A stretch of 23,245 nt of DNA from a virus. The notes under the pieces are model-generated. The model saw only the letters and a program-made list of their open reading frames with translations, made no database searches and had not been told where the DNA came from. Location: IMG/VR virus record IMGVR_UViG_3300034280_000567, positions 1 through 23,245 of that record. One strand, written 5' to 3'. The stretch's first letter is position 1, and the number at the start of each line of letters is the position of its first letter. The translations under genes were made by a program, and so were the position numbers. This document shows, in pieces, positions 78 to 22,254 of the stretch.

Positions 78-1280
78 ATGCCATTCTCATTTCCATCATC
101 GCCCACCGTGGGCCAGACCTCCACGCAAAACGGAAGAAGCTACACATACGCTGGCGGCTCGGTGTGGGAACTGACGCCAGCTTCCGGCGGCGGCTCTGAT
201 GCTCGCTGGGATTTGTTTTTGCCGCCTGCGCCGACAAGCGTGACGGCGACGGCTGGCAATGCGCAGGTGGTGGTGGCGTGGACTGCGCCTACGGGCGTTC
301 TTTCTCAGACACCAATCGTAGATTACACGGTGCAATATCAGCCAAGCGGCGGATCGTGGACAACCTTCACGCGATCTGTCTCGACCGCAACGAGCGCGAC
401 GGTGACGGGGCTTCAAAACGGCACGGACTACACGTTTCGCGTGGCAGCGGTGAATGGCGTCGGCACGGGGGCGTATTCGGCGGCGAGCAGCGCGGCTACG
501 CCAAGCAGCGGGGTGTCAGTCGCTTACCTTGTTGTCGCTGGCGGTGGCAGCGGCGGCAAAACCTATGGTGGCGGCGGCGGCGCTGGTGGAATGCTGACCG
601 GCACAGCAACGCTAGATGTTGGCTCTACCAACGTGGTCACTGTCGGTGCTGGAGCGTCTGGCGTCACCGGCAATTGGGTGCCGGGGAGCCAAGGCTCCAA
701 CTCCTCTCTTGGATCGTCGCTGACGGCGGTTGGCGGCGGATACGGTGGCGGCAACGCTGCCAACGGCGGGCCGAATGCTGGCGGCAACGGCGGCTCGGGC
801 GGCGGTGTGGGTGGAGGCTACCCCAAGCAGTCGCCGGGGACCGGCACGGCTGGGCAAGGCAACGCAGGTGGCACATGCACAGACGCCCCCGGCGGCGGTG
901 GCGGCGGTGCTGGCTCTGTGGGAGGTAACGGCACCAACGTGGCTGCTGGCAGCGGCGGCAACGGTCAATCGTGGCTCAACGGCGTTACCTATGCGGGCGG
1001 CGGAGGCGGCGGAATACACCCCGGCTCTGCCTCCGGTGGTTCCGGCGGCGGCGGCGCTGGTTCGTATGCCGGTGACGCTGGCGCGACGAACACTGGCGGC
1101 GGTGGTGGCGGCGCGAGCGACAGCGCCTCTTGGGCTGCACCTTCCGGTGCCGGTGGCTCTGGCGTAGTGATCATCCGCACTACAGTTGCCGCATCGGCAA
1201 CCACCGGCTCGCCAACCGTGACGCAGGCAGGCGGTTACAACTGGTACACGTTCACTGGCACCGGGAGCATCACGTTCTGA
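78..1280 (+). CDS. Fibre/adhesin-like virion protein with FN3 and glycine-rich domains
   Basis: 400 residues. Residues 1-35 form a short N-terminal module (P-S-S-P-T-V-G-Q-T, N-G-R-S-Y-T-Y) like those of phage virion attachment proteins. Residues 50-143 are a fibronectin type III domain (conserved W68, Y83, Y118 and the L-x-N-G-T-x-Y-x-F strand). From 148 the sequence A-Y-L-V-V-A-G-G-G opens a long glycine-rich domain, closed near 360 by S-G-V-V-I-I-R and ending T-G-T-G-S-I-T-F. This matches the phage glycine-rich fibre-tip family. The role in surface binding is known for the family and inferred here. The long GGC runs create open frames on both strands, which are shadows. ATG 78 follows AGGGAACTAACACC. 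Confidence 0.85.
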   Translation: MPFSFPSSPTVGQTSTQNGRSYTYAGGSVWELTPASGGGSDARWDLFLPPAPTSVTATAGNAQVVVAWTAPTGVLSQTPIVDYTVQYQPSGGSWTTFTRSVSTATSATVTGLQNGTDYTFRVAAVNGVGTGAYSAASSAATPSSGVSVAYLVVAGGGSGGKTYGGGGGAGGMLTGTATLDVGSTNVVTVGAGASGVTGNWVPGSQGSNSSLGSSLTAVGGGYGGGNAANGGPNAGGNGGSGGGVGGGYPKQSPGTGTAGQGNAGGTCTDAPGGGGGGAGSVGGNGTNVAAGSGGNGQSWLNGVTYAGGGGGGIHPGSASGGSGGGGAGSYAGDAGATNTGGGGGGASDSASWAAPSGAGGSGVVIIRTTVAASATTGSPTVTQAGGYNWYTFTGTGSITF

Positions 1281-3144: not shown

Positions 3145-3477
3145 ATGCCAATTGGCTCAGTTGAAATCACGCTCGGCAAAGACGTGACTATCACGGGCGT
3201 CGCGAACGCTCGGTCATGCACCGTCACCAACTCGGCGTCAGACGTTGACGTCACCAAGTTCGGCGACACGTCCCGCAAGTTCCGCAAGGCTCTCATCGAG
3301 CAGACGATTGAGCTTGAGTGTGTGGACGCTCCAGGCGTCAGCATCGGCGGCACGTTCACCATCAGCGGCACGCAGACCGGCAACGCCACGTACATCTGCA
3401 CCAACATTGCCCAGAGCCAGCCGCTCGACGGCATTATCACTTTCACCGTCAGCGGCTCGCGTACCGTCAGCGCCTAA
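3145..3477 (+). CDS. Tail tube-like protein, paralogue 1
   Basis: 110 residues. ATG 3145 is preceded by GAGAGGG with 6 bases of spacing; codons upstream in the frame do not look coding. The protein is beta-rich and opens I-T-L-G-K-D. It has a central I-E-L-E-C strand and ends P-L-D-G-I-I-T-F-T-V-S-G. The opening and closing patterns recur in the next two genes. Small beta-rich proteins just before the chaperone pair and tape measure gene are the tail tube proteins in siphophages. Which of the three copies forms the main tube is not clear. Confidence 0.65.
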   Translation: MPIGSVEITLGKDVTITGVANARSCTVTNSASDVDVTKFGDTSRKFRKALIEQTIELECVDAPGVSIGGTFTISGTQTGNATYICTNIAQSQPLDGIITFTVSGSRTVSA

Positions 3478-3501
3478 TCACTCTCACAGGAAAACGAACC
3501 A

Positions 3502-3825
3502 ATGGCAATTTCTCTCGGAAAAGACGCAGCGTCCGCTCCTCCGTTTGGCGAAGGCATCATCTCGGCGAGCTTCACCGAGGAGTGCGAGACGATTGACATC
3601 TCAAACCGCTCCAACGTCGGCGGCTCTGCCGGTGCTCCTGGCCGCAGGGTTAGTCGTGCCGGCTTCGTGACGAAGACGTGGGAAATTGAGTGCCACGACC
3701 CTGACGGGCTCATCACCTCGCTGACTGCTGCCGGCACCTCTGGCTCGTTTTCGATCATGAGCGTGTCGGAGAACATTGGCGTTGACGGCGCCGTCACCTA
3801 CAACGTGACCGCCAAGGAGTTCTAG
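3502..3825 (+). CDS. Tail tube-like protein, paralogue 2
   Basis: 107 residues with an AGGAAAA ribosome binding site about 8 bases before ATG 3502. It opens M-A-I-S-L-G-K-D, has T-W-E-I-E-C-H-D at the position of I-E-L-E-C-V-D in paralogue 1, and ends V-D-G-A-V-T-Y-N-V. A proline- and glycine-rich loop (A-P-P-F-G-E-G; G-G-S-A-G-A-P-G-R-R) distinguishes it. It is probably a second tube or decoration subunit. The stop overlaps the next GTG start by one base. Confidence 0.6.
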   Translation: MAISLGKDAASAPPFGEGIISASFTEECETIDISNRSNVGGSAGAPGRRVSRAGFVTKTWEIECHDPDGLITSLTAAGTSGSFSIMSVSENIGVDGAVTYNVTAKEF

Positions 3826-4187
3826 TGGCGATCACGCTGGGGAAAGACTGTTCCATCATGCTTGATGGCGGCTACATCGCCAGCGCTCGCAACGTGACGC
3901 TGACGGAGTCGGCACGCACGATCGACGTCAACCCGTACGGCAGTCGGTACGCAGCGACCTACAGCACTGGATACGACTGCGCCGTGAGCGTCGAACTCAA
4001 TAACGTGTCGGATCTCGGCACGGCGTTTGAGAAAATGCACACGGGCGGGACTTTCACTGTATACGGCGGGGCCGCAGGGTTTTCATTTCTCGCAGTGATG
4101 ACAGGCATCAGCGAGAGCGATCCGATTGATGGCGTGGCGACGTTCACGCTTGAAGGCCGGATGACTGATCCTAGATTGGCGAGGTAG
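3825..4187 (+). CDS. Tail tube-like protein, paralogue 3
   Basis: 120 residues starting at GTG 3825, which shares its G with the preceding TAG (TAGTG). It opens A-I-T-L-G-K-D and ends P-I-D-G-V-A-T-F-T-L-E-G, as in the two upstream copies; it also has a V-S-V-E-L strand and a G-G-T-F-T-V turn. The one-base overlap argues for fixed stoichiometry with paralogue 2. The chaperone gene follows after 4 bases. Confidence 0.6.
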   Translation: MAITLGKDCSIMLDGGYIASARNVTLTESARTIDVNPYGSRYAATYSTGYDCAVSVELNNVSDLGTAFEKMHTGGTFTVYGGAAGFSFLAVMTGISESDPIDGVATFTLEGRMTDPRLAR

Positions 4188-4191
4188 TGGG

Positions 4192-4749
4192 ATGCGTGAG
4201 TTCCGTGATGACCAAGGCAGGCCGTGGCAGGTGGCGTTGACGGTGGCGTCGGCGCTGCGTGTCCGTGACAACGTCACGGTCGATGTTGTGGACGAAGAGA
4301 GCGGCGAGCGTAAGGCTGTGCCGTTCGACATGGTGGACGCTGCGAACATCTCGCAGACGTTCCAAGTGCTGCGAAGCCAGTACGCCAAGATTGGCGAGAT
4401 CCTCTACGCAATGCTCACCAAGCAGATCGAAGCGAAGGGGCTGTCGAGAGAGGATTTCCTTGACGGTCTGCGTGGCGATTCGCTAGACGCTGCGACGAAG
4501 GCGCTAGAGCAGGAGCTTGTCGATTTTTTCCCCCAGCGCCTCCGCAAGATGATCGGGCTGTTGGCCGCCAAGATGGACGAGGTAGCCAACGAGATGCTCG
4601 GCAGAGCGGAGGCGGGCCTGGAGAAGGCGACGGTGGAGAGCCTCGCAGGAGCGTCTGGGACGCCATCTGGGAGGCCGCAGGAATCCTCGGAGTCTACCCA
4701 GGCAAGTGGACCGTCAGGCAACTCTTCGCCGCTCGTGACAGCCGCCTAG
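4192..4749 (+). CDS. Tail assembly chaperone, short (G-like) product
   Basis: 185 residues. M-R-E-F-R-D-D-Q-G-R-P-W opens a compact N-terminal domain. A helical region follows (Q-R-L-R-K-M-I-G-L-L-A-A-K-M-D-E-V), then a Ser/Gly/Pro-rich tail. The position between tail tube genes and the tape measure, and a second frame running to the tape measure start, identify it as the G-like half of a lambda gpG/gpGT-type chaperone pair. These proteins hold the tape measure protein in solution during tail assembly and are not in the finished virion. The TTTTTTC heptamer at 4524-4530 lies in this gene. Confidence 0.75.
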   Translation: MREFRDDQGRPWQVALTVASALRVRDNVTVDVVDEESGERKAVPFDMVDAANISQTFQVLRSQYAKIGEILYAMLTKQIEAKGLSREDFLDGLRGDSLDAATKALEQELVDFFPQRLRKMIGLLAAKMDEVANEMLGRAEAGLEKATVESLAGASGTPSGRPQESSESTQASGPSGNSSPLVTAA

Positions 4750-4931
4750 AGCACGATTGGTGGCACACGGCGAACATCCTCGCACAGCAAGCCAACATCA
4801 ACCGAGACAAGAATTCGCCGAAGGCAGACCCTCGCAAGCTGAATCCGTACGCAAAGAAACCGAAGCCGAGACAGGCGACGCCTGATGACCTAAAACGCCT
4901 ATTCGGGCAAGACTGGCAGAAACACGTATGA
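4192..4931 (+). CDS. Tail assembly chaperone, frameshifted (GT-like) product
   Basis: The -1 frame is open from upstream of 4500 to TGA 4931 and encodes V-W-D-A-I-W-E-A-A-G-I-L-G-V-Y-P-G, W-T-V-R-Q-L-F-A-A-R and H-T-A-N-I-L-A-Q-Q-A-N. This is the characteristic T-domain pattern of siphophage chaperones. I find no ATG, GTG or TTG in this frame between 4530 and 4931, so it cannot start by itself. A slip at T_TTT_TTC, re-reading base 4530, gives 113 + 133 = 246 residues. A Gly/Pro/Gln-rich linker joins the halves. A slip nearer 4620-4660 is possible but has no canonical site. Its TGA overlaps the tape measure ATG. Confidence 0.7.
4524..4530 (+). promoter_or_regulatory. Candidate -1 ribosomal slippery heptamer
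   Basis: T TTT TTC matches X_XXY_YYZ in the reading frame of the upstream chaperone gene (zero-frame codons TTT 4525 and TTC 4528). After a -1 slip both tRNAs re-pair with TTT. The run continues into CCCCC. No downstream pseudoknot was worked out. Confidence 0.6.
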
Positions 4932-7900: not shown

Positions 7901-8029
7901 TCGTCGGTCAATCTCGGCGGCATGGGCTTTGGCTCGTCTCTGGCTGAACGCACTGCAAAGGCAGCAGAGGACACGGCGAAGGGTGTCAAGGAACTTGTCG
8001 GCCAGGGTGGCGGAAAGGTGGCAGCGTAA
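4928..8029 (+). CDS. Phage tail tape measure protein, TP901 type
   Basis: 1033 residues; ATG 4928 overlaps the frameshift product's stop (ATGA). Residues about 60-260 match the PhageMin_Tail/TP901 core (F-E-S-T-L-L-N-I-R-A-S-T-G; A-L-E-F-A-K-V-G; D-L-S-A-T-L-A-I-L-A-N-N-G; G-T-S-V-K-T-M-L-M-R-L). The middle (about 350-700) is a long Ala/Gly-rich hydrophobic zone with imperfect A-G-F-A-A-S-S-A repeats, as expected for segments that reach the host membrane. Residues about 850-960 are a charged coiled coil rich in A, E, K, Q and R. The protein sets tail length and is ejected before DNA. At roughly 1.5 angstrom per residue it suggests a tail near 150 nm (family rule, inferred). Confidence 0.93.
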   Translation: MSAGAVRAGGVFVEIGADPRKFFSALTKVNKSLGNMGRSLASGGGKLAAAGIGMAAPIAAAVRQGAAFESTLLNIRASTGATSAQIDQIKASSMAMSQALGVGPTEAAQGMLELLKAGMSLDAVLGGAGKTALEFAKVGEMDVAQAAVVMSDAMNVFKVSSDVAANALSSAADASSTSIAQMSEAFSMSSAVAGLAGQSIEDLSATLAILANNGVKGSDAGTSVKTMLMRLMAPADDAVGALDQLGLSVASFRGADGQMKPMVEIIGTLTQAMGGLDQTAKDDIFRRIFGADAIRAASILASEGVDGFNGMRDAMASALPVGEKYKLVMSGLVGSFGIVLAAMQRMAIAITDAVAPALAGALPFITGFIDGLTKLATDNKEAVAAFAQFAVAAVAVGGAMVGLGISLQVTSFGFAGIGKAAAFALSPLTMLMGTVTGVGKSFALAMPATIKLASTIGSSMLAASASVASFAATAGSAMAGFAASSATALAGFAASSAAGFARMSGAASAAAAAMFPVFFTGFNRGIAAGAGFFSATIRGLNGVVMASSALRGAMFAVSGSGMARFVGDIVGGLTLTYKSFVWWATGASARMAQYAANLTGAVGKTIASTAAMSAAWLGSAARGVAAFVGSAVAGIGTYLAATAMAVAGSVASAAAVAAAWLAPLAPLLLLSAAAVGVGVAVKQFGPQIAGAFSGLAGYVTEAGGAIAGGFSTAVSDGIVVLGDLATTATTTFNGVYEAVAAGDLSGAMDVLWAGLVAGWLRGTEALMSYVDPWVAAFQDVFTDIGSGIYIAWDKIYTDSAALLNTMGAFIMGFFDNIANGVMATFDNLVAGIQIAWTRVKGFITGAKDTKERVQKIKDANAARAEQRRQERPGVEGRTAKAAAENAQAEQDRMDRVDAVQADAQATKDERQVASQQLADERRAGVMAAEAKLAELTTAKQAERDAAKKAAEEIAITTGADAASPSEKAATAGASAAGADAATSKAEVAGTFSSVNLGGMGFGSSLAERTAKAAEDTAKGVKELVGQGGGKVAA

Positions 8030-8919
8030 TGGCACTCGTGTGGGTAGAAGACGGCGACAGCAGGCAGGCGACGATTGTCCGCAAGGGCAAGAAGGGTGCG
8101 TCTTCCTACACTAAGTCATACAAGATATTCGGCACTGCCGATGACACGGAACTGCATGCCGCGATCAACGCAGAGATAAGCGCGAACGGTGCGTACTGGC
8201 AGTATCCAGGCGTCACAGGCATGCAACTGCTTGCCGAGCAGTACAGCGTTTCGTACCTCGGCGACAACGCTTGGCAGCTGACGATCAGCTATGAGAAGGC
8301 TGGCGCAGAAGATTCATCGCAGACCGAGCCGCTGAAGCGTGCGAGGTCTTTCGACACGACGGGCGGCACGCAGCACGTCACGCAGGCATGTTCGGTCGGG
8401 TCTGGCGGCACGCTGGACTTTGAGAAGCGGTTCCCGTCAACAGCAACGAATATGTCAGGGGCAATCGGCGTTGACGCTAACGGCGTGAACGGCATCGACA
8501 TCATCACGCCGCAGCTGCAATGGCAGGAGCAGTACGACGTCCCCAACGCCTACATCACTGCCGCCTACGTGCGTGGATTGGCTGGGCTCACTGGCACGAC
8601 GAACAATGCCGCATTCAGGGGCTTTGAGGCTGGCGAGGTTCTGTTTGTAGGCTGCTCGGGTTCGCAAGAGTGGGACAGTGACAAGGGTAGCGGGCCGTGG
8701 TCGTTGTCATATCGTTTTGTGGCGTCAAAGAACGTCACTGGGCAGACCATCGGCAGCATCGGCGGCATCGAGAAGAAGGGTCACGAATACCTATGGGTAC
8801 GGTACGAAGATGCCGTCTCTGGCAGTTCGCTCCTGAAGCAACCCAAGGCAGTCTACGTCTCAAAGGTCTACAAGGACGCTGACTTCTCGCAGCTAGGCAT
8901 CGGCACGGGGTACACCTGA
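8029..8919 (+). CDS. Tail protein downstream of tape measure, unknown
   Basis: 296 residues. ATG 8029 overlaps the tape measure TAA by one base. The N-terminal part (about 1-95) reads as a mixed alpha/beta domain with W-Q-L-T-I-S-Y. The C-terminal part (about 150-270) is beta-rich with Y-I-T-A-A-Y-V-R-G-L-A-G-L-T-G-T-T-N-N and a W-S-L-S-Y-R-F strand. No motif allows a name. The position directly after the tape measure is that of distal tail or baseplate hub proteins, so that is the working inference. Confidence 0.6.
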   Translation: MALVWVEDGDSRQATIVRKGKKGASSYTKSYKIFGTADDTELHAAINAEISANGAYWQYPGVTGMQLLAEQYSVSYLGDNAWQLTISYEKAGAEDSSQTEPLKRARSFDTTGGTQHVTQACSVGSGGTLDFEKRFPSTATNMSGAIGVDANGVNGIDIITPQLQWQEQYDVPNAYITAAYVRGLAGLTGTTNNAAFRGFEAGEVLFVGCSGSQEWDSDKGSGPWSLSYRFVASKNVTGQTIGSIGGIEKKGHEYLWVRYEDAVSGSSLLKQPKAVYVSKVYKDADFSQLGIGTGYT

Positions 8920-11974: not shown

Positions 11975-12185
11975 GAGGGTGAAGCCCGCAAAGCCTGCGA
12001 CGTGGATTGATCGCCTTAGCGATGACGACCAGGCGGGCGTGCAGGAGATCCGCACGCGGTTCCAGGCAGGCGGCTACGGTGCCGCATCTGCGGCATCAGT
12101 GGCACGGGCACTGCGGGAAGAGGCGGCTGCGGCTGGGTGGCACATCATCTCCGAGAAGGAGCTTTCCGAATGGCTGCGAAAATAG
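11925..12185 (+). CDS. Small basic, possibly DNA-binding protein
   Basis: 86 residues from GTG 11925, chosen because GGGGGAG lies a few bases upstream; starting at ATG 11844 would add a low-quality leader overlapping the previous gene. The N-terminus is basic (K-T-K-S-R-K-S). Residues 35-86 are helical with Q-A-G-V-Q-E-I-R-T-R-F and S-V-A-R-A-L-R-E-E, then an E-K-E-L-S-E-W-L end. A helix-turn-helix regulator or a terminase-small-subunit-like protein is possible, but neither is shown. Confidence 0.5.
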   Translation: MKTKSRKSVALADAVAERVKPAKPATWIDRLSDDDQAGVQEIRTRFQAGGYGAASAASVARALREEAAAAGWHIISEKELSEWLRK

Positions 12186-13336
12186 CGGACAAGATCAAGG
12201 CAAAGTTGCCGCCGCCGAAGCCAGCAGCAGACGCCGAGCAAGTGACGCAGTCGCAGTCGGGCGACACGCTTGAGGCGCGATCCACAAGCCGACGCATCAA
12301 GACCGTCGAGGATCTGCTGAAGCACATCGAAGCGGACATGAGCCGTTTTGAAATCGCATCCAGCGAAGCGACCAAGTGGGAATGTGGCGACGGCGAAGGC
12401 GGAAGCATTGAACTGCATCGCGTGTTCGTAAGGCTCAAGCCGAAGGGCGGGCCGACGACCCGCGAGGTTGTCGAGGCGATGATCGGCGCTGCAAGGAAAG
12501 ACATCCGCAAGCCTTTGGCCAAGACTGCCAAGGCACCAAAGCGGGAAGGACTCTGGCAGGTGCTCGTGGTGGCAGACACGCACTTCGGAAAATACTGCTG
12601 GGACAAGACAGCCGGTGGCGGCGATTACGACTTGGATATTGCCGCCCGGCTTGTTGGTGACGCTGCGAGTGAACTGCTGGCGGTTGGCGACGACAGCAAG
12701 CCAGCCAGACGCACGGTCGCCTTCTTGGGAGACCTGTTTCACTACGACACGCCCGCCGGCACGACTACCGGCGGCACGCCGCTAGAGCGTGACGGGCGGC
12801 TTCAGAAAATGATCGAAGTCGGCTGCGACACGCTCTTGTCTCTGGTGCAGCAGTCCGCTGAGACGGTGCCTACCGACGTCGTGATTGTGAACGGCAACCA
12901 CGACGAAGTCATGACGTGGACGTTCCAGAGAATCTTGCAGGAACGCTTTCGAGGATCTCGGTCTGTGAAGGTGTGCGGCGAGTTCAAGGGGCGGCAGTAT
13001 CTTTCGCACGGCGGCAACCTCATCGGATTCACGCACGGGCACAAGGCGAAACCGAAGCTGCCGCAGATCATGGCACTGGAGCAGCCGAAGGCGTGGAGCC
13101 AGAGCGTCTACCGCGAGTGGCACACTGGGCACCTGCACCACCAGGCGGCTGCGAACAACAAGCCGATAGACACGCTTGACGGCGTCATCGTGCGAACCGC
13201 ACCGGCGCTGAATCCGCCAGACGATTACCACGCCATCAACGGTTGGATCGGGAGCCGTCAGGCAATGGAGACGTTTCTGTATCGCCACGGCGGCGGTCTG
13301 GCATCCATGCACGTCGCAGGCCCGAGGCTTGACTGA
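12170..13336 (+). CDS. Calcineurin-type metallophosphoesterase
   Basis: 388 residues from ATG 12170 (AAGGAG about 8 bases upstream; 16-base overlap with the previous gene). All metal-ligand motifs of the fold are visible: D136-x-H138 (V-A-D-T-H-F-G), G187-D188 (F-L-G-D-L-F-H), G242-N-H-D245 (N-G-N-H-D-E), H289-x-H291 (T-H-G-H) and H318-T-G-H321-L-H323. The family hydrolyses phosphodiester or phosphomonoester bonds with two metals. The first 120 residues are a non-catalytic, Lys-rich extension. Its substrate is unknown; in a phage, nucleic acid processing is plausible. It is translationally linked to the following Nmad1-like gene. Confidence 0.88.
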   Translation: MAAKIADKIKAKLPPPKPAADAEQVTQSQSGDTLEARSTSRRIKTVEDLLKHIEADMSRFEIASSEATKWECGDGEGGSIELHRVFVRLKPKGGPTTREVVEAMIGAARKDIRKPLAKTAKAPKREGLWQVLVVADTHFGKYCWDKTAGGGDYDLDIAARLVGDAASELLAVGDDSKPARRTVAFLGDLFHYDTPAGTTTGGTPLERDGRLQKMIEVGCDTLLSLVQQSAETVPTDVVIVNGNHDEVMTWTFQRILQERFRGSRSVKVCGEFKGRQYLSHGGNLIGFTHGHKAKPKLPQIMALEQPKAWSQSVYREWHTGHLHHQAAANNKPIDTLDGVIVRTAPALNPPDDYHAINGWIGSRQAMETFLYRHGGGLASMHVAGPRLD

Positions 13337-18706: not shown

Positions 18707-19678
18707 TCAAGTAGCGTTGTTTTCTGGTGGCTTTTCGTCGCTCGCAGGCGGGGCGTCGGCGGGCTTCTCTGGCGGCTGCTCGCTGGCCGGCGGCTTTGGC
18801 GTCGTCAGGTCAAGCGGTGGCAGCAGGTCAATCGCCGTCTGTTTCGGCTTGGCAATGGTTACGTCGATGTAGTGGGCTTTTGTGATGGCAGGATTGGAAT
18901 GATCAAGCAGCTGGGTTGCTGCCGCGTCACCGCCGGCAAGTGCCATGTAGCTGGCCGCTGACTTACGCAGCCCGTGGAAGCCACGGTTCGTGACGCTTGC
19001 CCGCTTGCAAAGCAGCCCGAAGTGGTGCCACAAGGTGCTTTTGTCAGCCGTCCACGGCCAGACGAGATCGTCAGGCTTGCCTCGGATCTGCTCCAGCCAC
19101 TTGCACTGCTCCTCTGAGATCGTCCGCAGGATGTCGCGGGTCGCACCTTTCCGACCCTCGGCTGGGAAGATGACGATTCGCTGCGTCGTGTCCACGTCAC
19201 GCCAGCGGAGTGCCAGATGCGAGCCGATCCGCTCGGCGGTCTCCCAGCATGACCGGATCAGCGGCGGAAAGAAAAGGTGCGGCGGCAGCGTGGTAGGCTT
19301 TATACGGGGCCGTCGCTGCAAAGCCTGCCGCAAGAGGGCTGAGACCTCATCGACCGTGTAGCCTCGCGGTATGCGTCCTGGTGCCCGTATCTGGGCCAGC
19401 GTCGGGAACTGGTCCACGTATCTTCGCTTGGCACAGTAGGACCACAGGGCAGAAATCTGGTTTCGGTCCTTTCTGGCCGTGGCGGCTGACCGCACGGCTC
19501 GCCGGCTGGCAACGTAGGTCTGAACCACCAGCGGGTCGAGGTGCTCGGTTGTCGGCTCCGTTTTCAGTTGGTCTGCCCAGCGGGCAAACGTCAGACGGTA
19601 TTGCCGCCTGCACTGGTCGGAATGTGCCCGCAGCACTGCGTACTCGTTTTCGTAGATGTCCCGTAGTATTCTGGTCAT
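18707..19678 (-). CDS. int: Tyrosine recombinase / phage integrase
   Basis: 323 residues from ATG 19678 (GGAG 9 bases upstream). Residues about 8-90 are a SAM-like core-binding domain (Y-A-V-L-R-A-H-S...L-T-F-A-R-W-A-D). The catalytic domain has R150 (T-A-E-R-I-G-S-H-L-A-L-R-W), K177, H235-x-x-R238 (G-F-H-G-L-R-K-S), H260 and the nucleophile Y270 (A-I-T-K-A-H-Y-I-D). All expected catalytic positions are present, so it is probably active. After Y270 comes a Pro/Lys-rich tail of about 50 residues, longer than usual. It is divergent from the regulator gene, the normal placement for an attP-linked int. Confidence 0.92.
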   Translation of the reverse strand: MTRILRDIYENEYAVLRAHSDQCRRQYRLTFARWADQLKTEPTTEHLDPLVVQTYVASRRAVRSAATARKDRNQISALWSYCAKRRYVDQFPTLAQIRAPGRIPRGYTVDEVSALLRQALQRRPRIKPTTLPPHLFFPPLIRSCWETAERIGSHLALRWRDVDTTQRIVIFPAEGRKGATRDILRTISEEQCKWLEQIRGKPDDLVWPWTADKSTLWHHFGLLCKRASVTNRGFHGLRKSAASYMALAGGDAAATQLLDHSNPAITKAHYIDVTIAKPKQTAIDLLPPLDLTTPKPPASEQPPEKPADAPPASDEKPPENNAT

Positions 19679-20608: not shown

Positions 20609-20845
20609 ATGCTCCGCGACACACTCAAAGCCGCTCTCGTCATCGCCTGCATGACCATCGGTGCCGAGTTGCTGGTCGAGACGCGATTCGAGATCGCCGC
20701 CATCGACATCGCACACCGCCAGGCTCTCGCGCCGCAGGTCGTTGCCCAGCAGATGCCGCCGCAGATGGAGCCGCCCGGTCGGCTTCGCCAGTTCGGACGT
20801 TCGGCAATCAACCTTGCTGACGCAGCCCTAAGCATTCTCCGTTGA
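20609..20845 (+). CDS. Small membrane-associated early protein
   Basis: 78 residues; GGAAAGGA lies about 7 bases before ATG 20609. Residues 6-22 (L-K-A-A-L-V-I-A-C-M-T-I-G-A-E-L-L) form one moderately hydrophobic segment. The rest is Pro/Gln-rich (Q-Q-M-P-P-Q-M-E-P-P) and ends with a helix. Its TGA lies inside the -35 of the next promoter. Function unknown. Confidence 0.55.
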   Translation: MLRDTLKAALVIACMTIGAELLVETRFEIAAIDIAHRQALAPQVVAQQMPPQMEPPGRLRQFGRSAINLADAALSILR

Positions 20846-20869
20846 CAGAACTAACGCAGGCGTTATCTT
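20842..20869 (+). promoter_or_regulatory. Promoter P3 with operator O3
   Basis: TTGACA, 16 bases, TATCTT. O3 fills the spacer. The predicted start near 20876 lies just before O4. This promoter would drive the recombination operon. Confidence 0.6.
20851..20866. promoter_or_regulatory. Operator O3, CTAACG-CAGG-CGTTAT
   Basis: One mismatch in the last base of the palindrome. Centre-to-centre distance to O4 is 30 bases, close to three helical turns, which allows cooperative binding. Confidence 0.65.
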
Positions 20870-20880
20870 GCTCGTCGCAA

Positions 20881-20896
20881 CTAACGCAGTCGTTAG
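20881..20896. promoter_or_regulatory. Operator O4, CTAACG-CAGT-CGTTAG
   Basis: Perfect palindrome just downstream of the P3 start. It is followed by TACTAT (20901-20906), which lacks a good -35. Confidence 0.7.
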
Positions 20897-20964
20897 CAAA
20901 TACTATACAGATTTCCAACAAACACAAACCGCTCCACAGCTTGTTTTGCAGCACTTTCGGACGC

Positions 20965-20992
20965 TTGACCGACGACTGTTCAGCCGTACACT
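20965..20992 (+). promoter_or_regulatory. Second promoter of the recombination operon
   Basis: TTGACC, 16 bases, TACACT, with a predicted start near 20999. AAAGGAG (21007-21013) and ATG 21023 follow. It carries no operator copy, so expression could be partly constitutive. Confidence 0.55.
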
Positions 20993-21022
20993 TCCACCCC
21001 ACAACCAAAGGAGATGACCCAC

Positions 21023-21235
21023 ATGGACGCTCACTCAAACGAATACGCCGCCGCCGTCGCCGGCATGACCGAGACCTACGGCACGCAGCAGACGCCCGCC
21101 GTAGGCGACTTCGTCTCTGGCTTGTCGGCTGGGCGAAGGTGGTCTGGACACGTCGAGTGGATCGACGGCGACCGCCTGACCATCGACGTCGGCGGCGCAT
21201 GGCTCGCCGTGCCGGCCAAGGACATCACGCACTGA
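21023..21235 (+). CDS. Small early protein with beta-barrel-like end
   Basis: 70 residues from ATG 21023 (AAAGGAG with 9 bases of spacing; ATG 21014 is too close to the site). The first third is Ala/Thr-rich. The end reads V-G-D-F-V-S-G-L-S-A-G-R-R-W-S-G-H-V-E-W-I-D-G-D-R-L-T-I-D-V in short blocks, a small beta-barrel-like fold with a final W-L-A-V-P. Similar compact proteins precede recombination genes in phages. Function unknown. Confidence 0.55.
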   Translation: MDAHSNEYAAAVAGMTETYGTQQTPAVGDFVSGLSAGRRWSGHVEWIDGDRLTIDVGGAWLAVPAKDITH

Positions 21236-21378
21236 ACGCACAAGGAACGCTCGCCAGCAGGACGCAGGCGGGCGGAAAGGAGCCGGTGGAACCGGAGCAG
21301 CAAGGACGCAAATACGTGCCGCCTAGCAGGATGCGAAAGCGGCTTTTTCAGGACGGACAGACACGAAAGGACACGGAC

Positions 21379-22254
21379 ATGACGGTACAGATCAGAAAGG
21401 CGAAGCGGTCGGCAACCAAGCTGCGGCTGCTTCTCACAGGCCCGAGCGGCTCGGGAAAGACTTGGGGCGCTCTGCAAATCGCCAAGGGGCTTGGCGGCAG
21501 GACGATGGTGATCGACACGGAGGAAGGCAGCAGCGATCTCTACGAGCACCTGCACGACTTCGACGTGATCGACCTTCGCCCGCCGTTCACGCCAGAGCGG
21601 TACATCGAGGCGATCACCGCAGCCGAAGAAGCTGGCTACGAAGTCATCATCGTGGACAGCGTCACGCACTGCTGGAGCGGCTCGGGCGGATGCCTGGAGC
21701 TTCTCGAAGACGTTGCGAAGGCTCAGTTTCGTGGCAATACGTGGTCGGCGTTCAGCGTCATCACGCCACGCTGGCGGGCGTTCGTGGACAAGTTGTTGCG
21801 GTCGCCTGCCCACGTCATCTGCTCTGGTCGCAGCAAGACCGAGACTGCCCAAGTGGACGACCACGGCAAGAAGAAGGTGGCGAAACTCGGGATGAAGCTG
21901 GAAGCCCGCGACGGGCTGGAGTTTGAGTTCACCACCGTCCTGGACCTGATCCATGACGGGCACTACGCGACGGTCAGCAAGGACCGCACGGGCCTGTTCG
22001 CTGGCGATCCCAAGCCCATCAACGTCCAGACCGGCGAGCGGATCGCCGAGTGGCTCTCTGGCGGCAAGCCGCTCGAGGATCAGACGGTCATCGACGGTGC
22101 GAGGAAGGCGATCAGCGACGCCACCAGCGTTGACGTGCTCGACAGACTGAACCAGCGGATTGCCCAGCGGTTGACCGAGGGGCGGATCTCGCAGGCGACA
22201 GCGACGGAACTGGCGGCAGCGATCACGGACAAGCGGAACGGACTCACTCTCTAA
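21379..22254 (+). CDS. Sak4-like AAA ATPase (phage recombination)
   Basis: 291 residues from ATG 21379 (GAAAGGA 7 bases upstream). Walker A is G21-P-S-G-S-G-K-T28; Walker B is V-I-I-V-D93-S; E-T-A-Q-V-D-D-H-G-K-K (about 155-165) and L-E-F-E-F-T-T-V-L-D-L follow. This is the AAA_24/Sak4 pattern of RecA-fold single-strand annealing ATPases. A C-terminal helical domain (about 235-291) is added. GTG 21286 is in frame and could add 31 residues, but has poor spacing. In this family the enzyme works with a phage SSB, and the SSB-like gene follows after 18 bases. Confidence 0.85.
   Translation: MTVQIRKAKRSATKLRLLLTGPSGSGKTWGALQIAKGLGGRTMVIDTEEGSSDLYEHLHDFDVIDLRPPFTPERYIEAITAAEEAGYEVIIVDSVTHCWSGSGGCLELLEDVAKAQFRGNTWSAFSVITPRWRAFVDKLLRSPAHVICSGRSKTETAQVDDHGKKKVAKLGMKLEARDGLEFEFTTVLDLIHDGHYATVSKDRTGLFAGDPKPINVQTGERIAEWLSGGKPLEDQTVIDGARKAISDATSVDVLDRLNQRIAQRLTEGRISQATATELAAAITDKRNGLTL

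Follow-up and report, generated by a model that had tools for sequence, protein, structure and literature searches.

A tandem trio of tail-tube-like paralogues upstream of the tape measure gene in an uncultured phage

Tail tubes are regarded as polymers of a single protein, with the tape measure protein determining how long they become. What role could be played by three tail-tube-like genes standing in tandem in the tail module of a single phage? The question is raised by a locus on an IMG/VR record taken in full (23,245 bases; hereafter the window), for which an earlier note, made from the sequence alone, had proposed three tail-tube-like paralogues and had read them as a hetero-oligomeric tube or as separate tube and cap proteins.

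Position of the three genes in the tail module

The three genes, here called A, B and C, are listed in Table 1 together with the other features of the window. Their open reading frames agree with the 107-120 residues given in the earlier note, and the overlap of one base that it described between the last two genes lies at base 3825, where the last base of the TAG that ends B is also the first of the GTG that starts C; this overlap suggests coupled translation. For gene A there is also a longer alternative frame, started by TTG, from 3007. The common opening and closing of the proteins, also described there, were found again as I-(T/S)-L-G-K-D and D-G-x-x-T-(F/Y) in A, B and C, and a joint alignment shows LGKD as the opening motif and DG.xT as the closing one in all three.

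Table 1. Coordinates of the features of the window, in bases of the record
Feature	Coordinates	Strand	Basis or remark
fn3 domain and glycine-rich domain, upstream of the tail module	78-1280		PF00041 1.5e-16; PF21722 6.5e-16
Tail terminator candidate, 155 aa	1758..2225	+	position only
Tail completion / Neck1-like protein, 272 aa	2235..3053	+	phrog_26 E 6e-4
Gene A, 110-aa tail-tube-like protein (P0001)	3145..3477	+	ATG start
Gene B, 107-aa tail-tube-like protein (P0002)	3502..3825	+	ATG start
Gene C, 120-aa tail-tube-like protein (P0003)	3825..4187	+	GTG start
G-like tail assembly chaperone candidate, 185 aa	4192..4749	+	position and frame layout only
T-like extension, open -1 frame relative to the 185-aa gene	4602..4931 (left limit provisional)	+	possible frameshift
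Tape measure protein, 1033 aa	4928..8029	+	phrog_4704 6.4e-65; PF10145 1e-37
Distal tail protein candidate	8029-8919		position only, no family match
Calcineurin-like phosphoesterase-like gene	12137-13336		PF12850 1.7e-5; 25.3 bits, below the curated cut-off of 27
Tyrosine recombinase gene	18707-19678	-	PF00589 2e-12
AAA_24 ATPase domain, non-structural part	20842-22254		PF13479 2.9e-24

Directly 3' of the trio come a candidate G/GT chaperone gene and then the tape measure gene. Siphophage major tail protein genes are placed likewise, in a block that precedes the tape measure gene and is separated from it by a small chaperone-like gene. Concerning the neighbours, homologues of the 155-aa, 272-aa and 185-aa genes lie beside 124, 96 and 137, respectively, of the 144 distinct trios described below. 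PHROG and Pfam searches gave the 155-aa gene no family match for a terminator role, and the PHROG search gave no match for the 185-aa gene. The -1 frame after the 185-aa gene continues without a stop as far as 4931, within the start of the tape measure gene, and the distant contig L362 also has, by eye, a similar protein in its -1 frame; a simple scan of 4601-4760 detected no canonical slippery heptamer. The 185-aa gene with its -1 frame has what we take to be the layout of the lambda G/GT-type tail assembly chaperones, and 4602-4931 possibly corresponds to a frameshift product of this type.

Median Shine-Dalgarno values are weaker for B (-4.0 kcal/mol) than for the other two genes (-6.3 and -6.6), which is compatible with unequal amounts of the three proteins. 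As a proxy for copy number, Shine-Dalgarno strength was considered and found undecisive, because further genes of the module score high too; the values outside the trio are -7.5 for the 185-aa gene, -9.9 for the 272-aa gene, -8.6 for the 296-aa gene and -2.6 for the tape measure gene.

Homology among the three proteins and their likeness to tail tubes

By sequence comparison A, B and C are homologous to one another beyond chance, and are thus paralogues. Smith-Waterman scores were 137 for A-C (0 of 2000 shuffles as high), 66 for A-B (2 of 2000) and 58 for B-C (0 of 2000), and when the record was searched with C, A was matched at E 4.7e-12. When the family alignments were compared profile against profile, the probabilities were 97.9% for A-C, 96.2% for C-B and 88.9% for A-B.

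Family matches of the single proteins are few. C weakly matched the major tail protein family phrog_1407 (E 4.4e-4 in the PHROG search, 5.5e-5 in another search of the record), A reached only E 0.023 with phrog_4574, also a major tail protein family, and B had neither a PHROG nor a Pfam match. Among diverged members, the homologue of A in locus L323 matched phrog_4574 at 9e-6, and no significant PHROG match came from the B and C proteins of L323 and L288. None of the three proteins reached a Pfam or NCBIfam cut-off: the Pfam search left all of them unmatched to PF06199 (Phage_tail_2), and the sole Pfam row for A was a head-tail attachment family at 0.054.

The AlphaFold2 model of C, for which 77 sequences of C and A were used, is middling (pLDDT 67.6, pTM 0.56). 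A Foldseek search of the PDB with this model returned ten matches at E<=1e-3, every one of them a chain of tail-type entries (phage 812 neck, GTA, monocin, R4C, diffocin and Sf11), with E values such as 2.5e-4 for 6toa_G, 4.3e-4 for 6tba_50 and 7.3e-4 for 8gtb_A. Two of the ten belong to entries titled tail tube, 8qhs (monocin) and 8gtb (R4C), the rest to neck, tip, tail or baseplate entries; we infer that these other eight chains are tube or tube-like rings. Against BFVD, C had 65 matches at E<=1e-3; the names among the best 50 of these 65 include tail tube, TP901-1 major tail protein and one portal/head protein, many rows being nameless, functionless or uncharacterised. The structure prediction suggested in the earlier note as a check thus speaks for its claim as far as C is concerned, the model matching chains of phage tails, gene transfer agents and bacteriocins. 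The tube chains of GTA and of siphophage R4C (130-134 residues in their entries) have a short single-domain fold, as does the C model, whereas the window has three genes, and PDB sequence searches found no credible match for the trio proteins.

For B the AlphaFold2 model has pLDDT 68.6 and pTM 0.57, and its seven best Foldseek matches in the PDB were GTA, monocin and SPP1 tail entries at E 0.022-0.098, with kinases next from 0.13. VIA-align, tried on both models, was not decisive, as its scores did not tell tube proteins apart from unrelated folds: the best Z for C was 8.4, to VgrG1, with flavin reductases above 7, and the best for B was 6.4, to an unrelated fold, with the SPP1 tube at 5.5.

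The name of tail-tube-like paralogues consequently holds to an unequal degree. It is well supported for C, by the predicted fold and the weak PHROG match, support for A is good, through homology, and for B it is fair, coming from homology and a weaker model whose top Foldseek classes are like those of C.

Conservation of the trio and other loci with several tube genes

Viral contigs were scanned with A, B and C, with the family alignments, with a diverged member and with the LGKD DNA motif. The loci are the best 80 of 84, 163, 190, 135, 242, 180 and 300 relatives, those from the motif scan being among the matches listed, and loci from separate scans overlap on many contigs. As A, B or C served to find them, the presence of one member was selected for, while copy number and order were not; differing copy numbers in remoter phages could be missed.

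At 418 of 438 loci (the window included; among the matches listed) A, B and C occur in that order, and these amount to 144 distinct trios. The other 20 comprise 16 partial loci, the contig L362 with a trio of its own, and three chance motif matches (L299, L347 and L369), rejected as trio loci because the motif lies in unrelated reading frames. Fifteen of the partial loci have two genes and one has a single gene, and by their coordinates all are cut by the edge of the contig or of the excerpt; where neighbouring sequence was present, no locus lacked A, B or C (438 loci, among the matches listed). Kept outside this count were L001, L002 and L448 (the window itself), the whole-record pieces L263-L270, and L449. 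In the first set of 71 distinct trios, the spacing between B and C is -1 in 47 and 0 in 19. C and A are present in all 20 selected longer records. No extra copy was detected with the A, B and C profiles in the loci examined, nor, with the C-family profile, outside the trio region of the 20 longer records; this profile missed B in 5 of the 20, so that an extra B-like copy there would escape.

The rough pairwise omega medians of the three families (0.159 for A, and 0.145 and 0.143) show that A, B and C are under purifying selection. In a tree of 90 representatives, B and C form clades (99/89 and 100/96), while A is no single clade because the long-branched L323_A falls outside; the deep branching order is unsure, given the long branches. 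As B and C are clades and A is single but for L323_A, the three-way split is older than the spread of the group as seen, and from these data the trio looks ancient and fixed.

By its sequences the trio is a distinct one and common in the viral contigs searched, with more than 100 relatives of this uncultured phage. Searches for cultured relatives found none for C or B, and none near the whole window; for A the only match, a protein of Roseobacter phage CRP-406 annotated as tail tube, was not significant (E 0.2). The window also carries a tyrosine recombinase gene (Table 1), so the phage may be temperate; yet bacterial genomes, in two pattern-limited scans, yielded no relative of the trio.

A different case is L362, a distant contig of 4,688 bases with three tandem genes (L362:2435-3829) for proteins of 146-147 aa that are 63-69% identical among themselves. 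They match phrog_1407 (2.7e-12, 1.7e-14 and 1.3e-15), and at 27.9, 34.6 and 32.4 all exceed the PF06199 tail-tube cut-off of 23.8, whereas of the window proteins C matches phrog_1407 weakly and A, B and C stay below the Pfam cut-off. The A, B and C profiles score them at 12.8 to 28.8 bits. On the 3' side of the L362 trio there is a homologue of the 185-aa gene of the window (score 177, 0 of 1000 shuffles) and, further 3', a frame resembling a tape measure gene as judged by eye. The first copy had no relative in the phages or plasmids searched. Either a second triplication or homogenised copies would account for these sequences.

The earlier note had also stated that most siphophages have one tube protein, which needs a caveat, since there are cultured actinophages with two or three paralogous major tail protein genes. 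A passage of the announcement of Microbacterium phage Damascus mentions two major tail proteins in cluster EL and several more clusters (PMC11080557), a passage of a Gordonia phage announcement does likewise (PMC10652937), and two are mentioned, with no explanation in the passage concerned, in a paper on staphylococcal sepunaviruses. Microbacterium phage Count (L449, 9016-11948) has three annotated major tail proteins, gp22, gp24 and gp25, all of phrog_2645 and 41-47% identical. A tblastn search with Count gp24 found 480 places in 243 phage records. Among the best 60 of the 243, three places were found in 5 records (Count, Shiba, Michelle, BronxBay and Egad), two in 49 and one in 6 (three Lactococcus phages, one Faecalibacterium phage and two others). 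In Arthrobacter phage Shiba (L450, 3537-7892) the trio consists, by annotation and match, of gp16, gp18 and gp19. One of these Shiba proteins, of 679 aa and annotated as a minor tail protein, matches with its N-terminal part.

These actinophages (phrog_2645; Microbacterium, Arthrobacter, Gordonia and Streptomyces) resemble the trio in having two or three paralogous genes upstream of the tape measure gene. The Count copies differ in being longer (215-294 aa) and in having other genes between them, and they show no clear relationship to the trio in sequence, the A, B and C profiles scoring at most 8.1 bits against Count gp22-gp25 (B profile against gp22, in a four-sequence search). In the literature searched we found no published explanation for siphophages with two or three tube genes. 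The trio of the window is a new, sequence-distinct form of a multi-gene arrangement that is already annotated in cultured phages.

A possible role for three subunits in one tail tube

We propose that an ancient triplication would have provided three subunits of tail-tube fold for one siphophage-type tail, each of them kept for its own place in the tube, so that the copies would not be interchangeable. A, B and C would all polymerise around the tape measure protein, helped by the G/GT-like candidate chaperone, and would be mixed in the body of the tube, in heteromeric or regularly alternating rings; a ring of six domains could, for example, be made of two ABC sets or of three AC pairs. Most likely each of the three is a tube subunit whose place the others cannot take; that they are mixed within the body of the tube is the reading we prefer, and we judge its chances to be about even. 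The wider meaning given in the earlier note, a hetero-oligomeric tube or a tube plus cap, fits a fixed trio and is plausible.

Known tube proteins have a long inter-ring loop, and in the corresponding stretch the A, B and C families each have, by eye, their own conserved sequence. This would suit defined neighbours and points against interchangeable copies, as do the ancient separation of the families and the lack, among the matches listed, of any intact locus without one of the members.

Siphophage tail ends are usually occupied by the terminator and the distal tail protein. One protein might nevertheless form nearly the whole tube, with the other two as single specialised end rings, an initiator at the tip and a cap at the terminator. 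The weaker ribosome site of B and the ancient separateness of the three families are in keeping with such an arrangement, and a passage on an extracellular contractile injection system offers a precedent in Alg1, Alg5 and Alg7, the AlgoCIS tube being accompanied by an initiator complex of two more proteins, all of the same barrel fold (PMC8894135). However, candidates for both terminator and distal tail protein are at hand in the window (Table 1; by position, with no family match), so that other genes seem to provide for the usual end rings, which favours the mixed tube, and the three similar copies of L362 are a poorer fit to special roles, while they fit a mixed tube. We consider end rings doubtful, though not negligible as an alternative to the mixed tube.

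Tube protein is needed in large amounts, and three interchangeable copies could simply raise its supply, as the likeness of the L362 copies would allow. Copies that are redundant would be expected to disappear or to become alike, but in the window family A, B and C have diverged widely, having separated before the group spread, and no member was missing where neighbouring sequence was present (among the matches listed), so that we regard mere dosage as improbable. Equally improbable is a tube role for one or two of the proteins only, another having kept the fold as an outer decoration, a neck ring or an assembly factor: B is the most distant of the three, with a less certain model and PDB matches at E 0.02 or worse, but it still has both end motifs (LGKD and DG.xT), and its leading Foldseek matches are of classes like those found for C.

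Zheng (2026) is said to have described Hcp heterohexamers. Mechanistic parallels can be drawn from several systems. The T5 tube subunit pb6 is a duplicated tube domain that forms a pseudo-hexamer, so that two kinds of tube domain make up a ring of six, as in the mixed ring proposed here; it differs in that its domains are fused in one protein and that there are two kinds and not three (PMC5717097). In SPP1, gp17.1 and its frameshift form provide two forms of the tube protein in one tail at 3:1, but from a single gene, through a C-terminal extension that is dispensable (PMC8718954). Heterohexamers of the T6SS protein Hcp appear in the title of 9vne and are cited in PMC13323088. T6SS Hcp, the tube and initiator layers of eCIS, and BIS clusters with two tube genes all have several tube-fold paralogues per system, as the trio does; unlike the trio, they belong to contractile injection systems, not to long non-contractile phage tails.

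Taking the window family, L362 and the Count-like actinophages together, the siphophage tube could be an obligate heteropolymer of three subunits that has arisen more than once, a tentative generalisation whose chances we would put somewhat short of even. If true, an obligate three-subunit tube would break the rule of the one-protein tube. Three obligate paralogues would raise the questions of how order is held in the ring or along the tube, and of how the tape measure protein or the chaperone would select the subunits, and mixed tubes might bring added flexibility or an escape from defences that sense the tube protein. It should be noted that a similar arrangement exists in the cultured phages Count and Shiba, which makes the question open to experiment.
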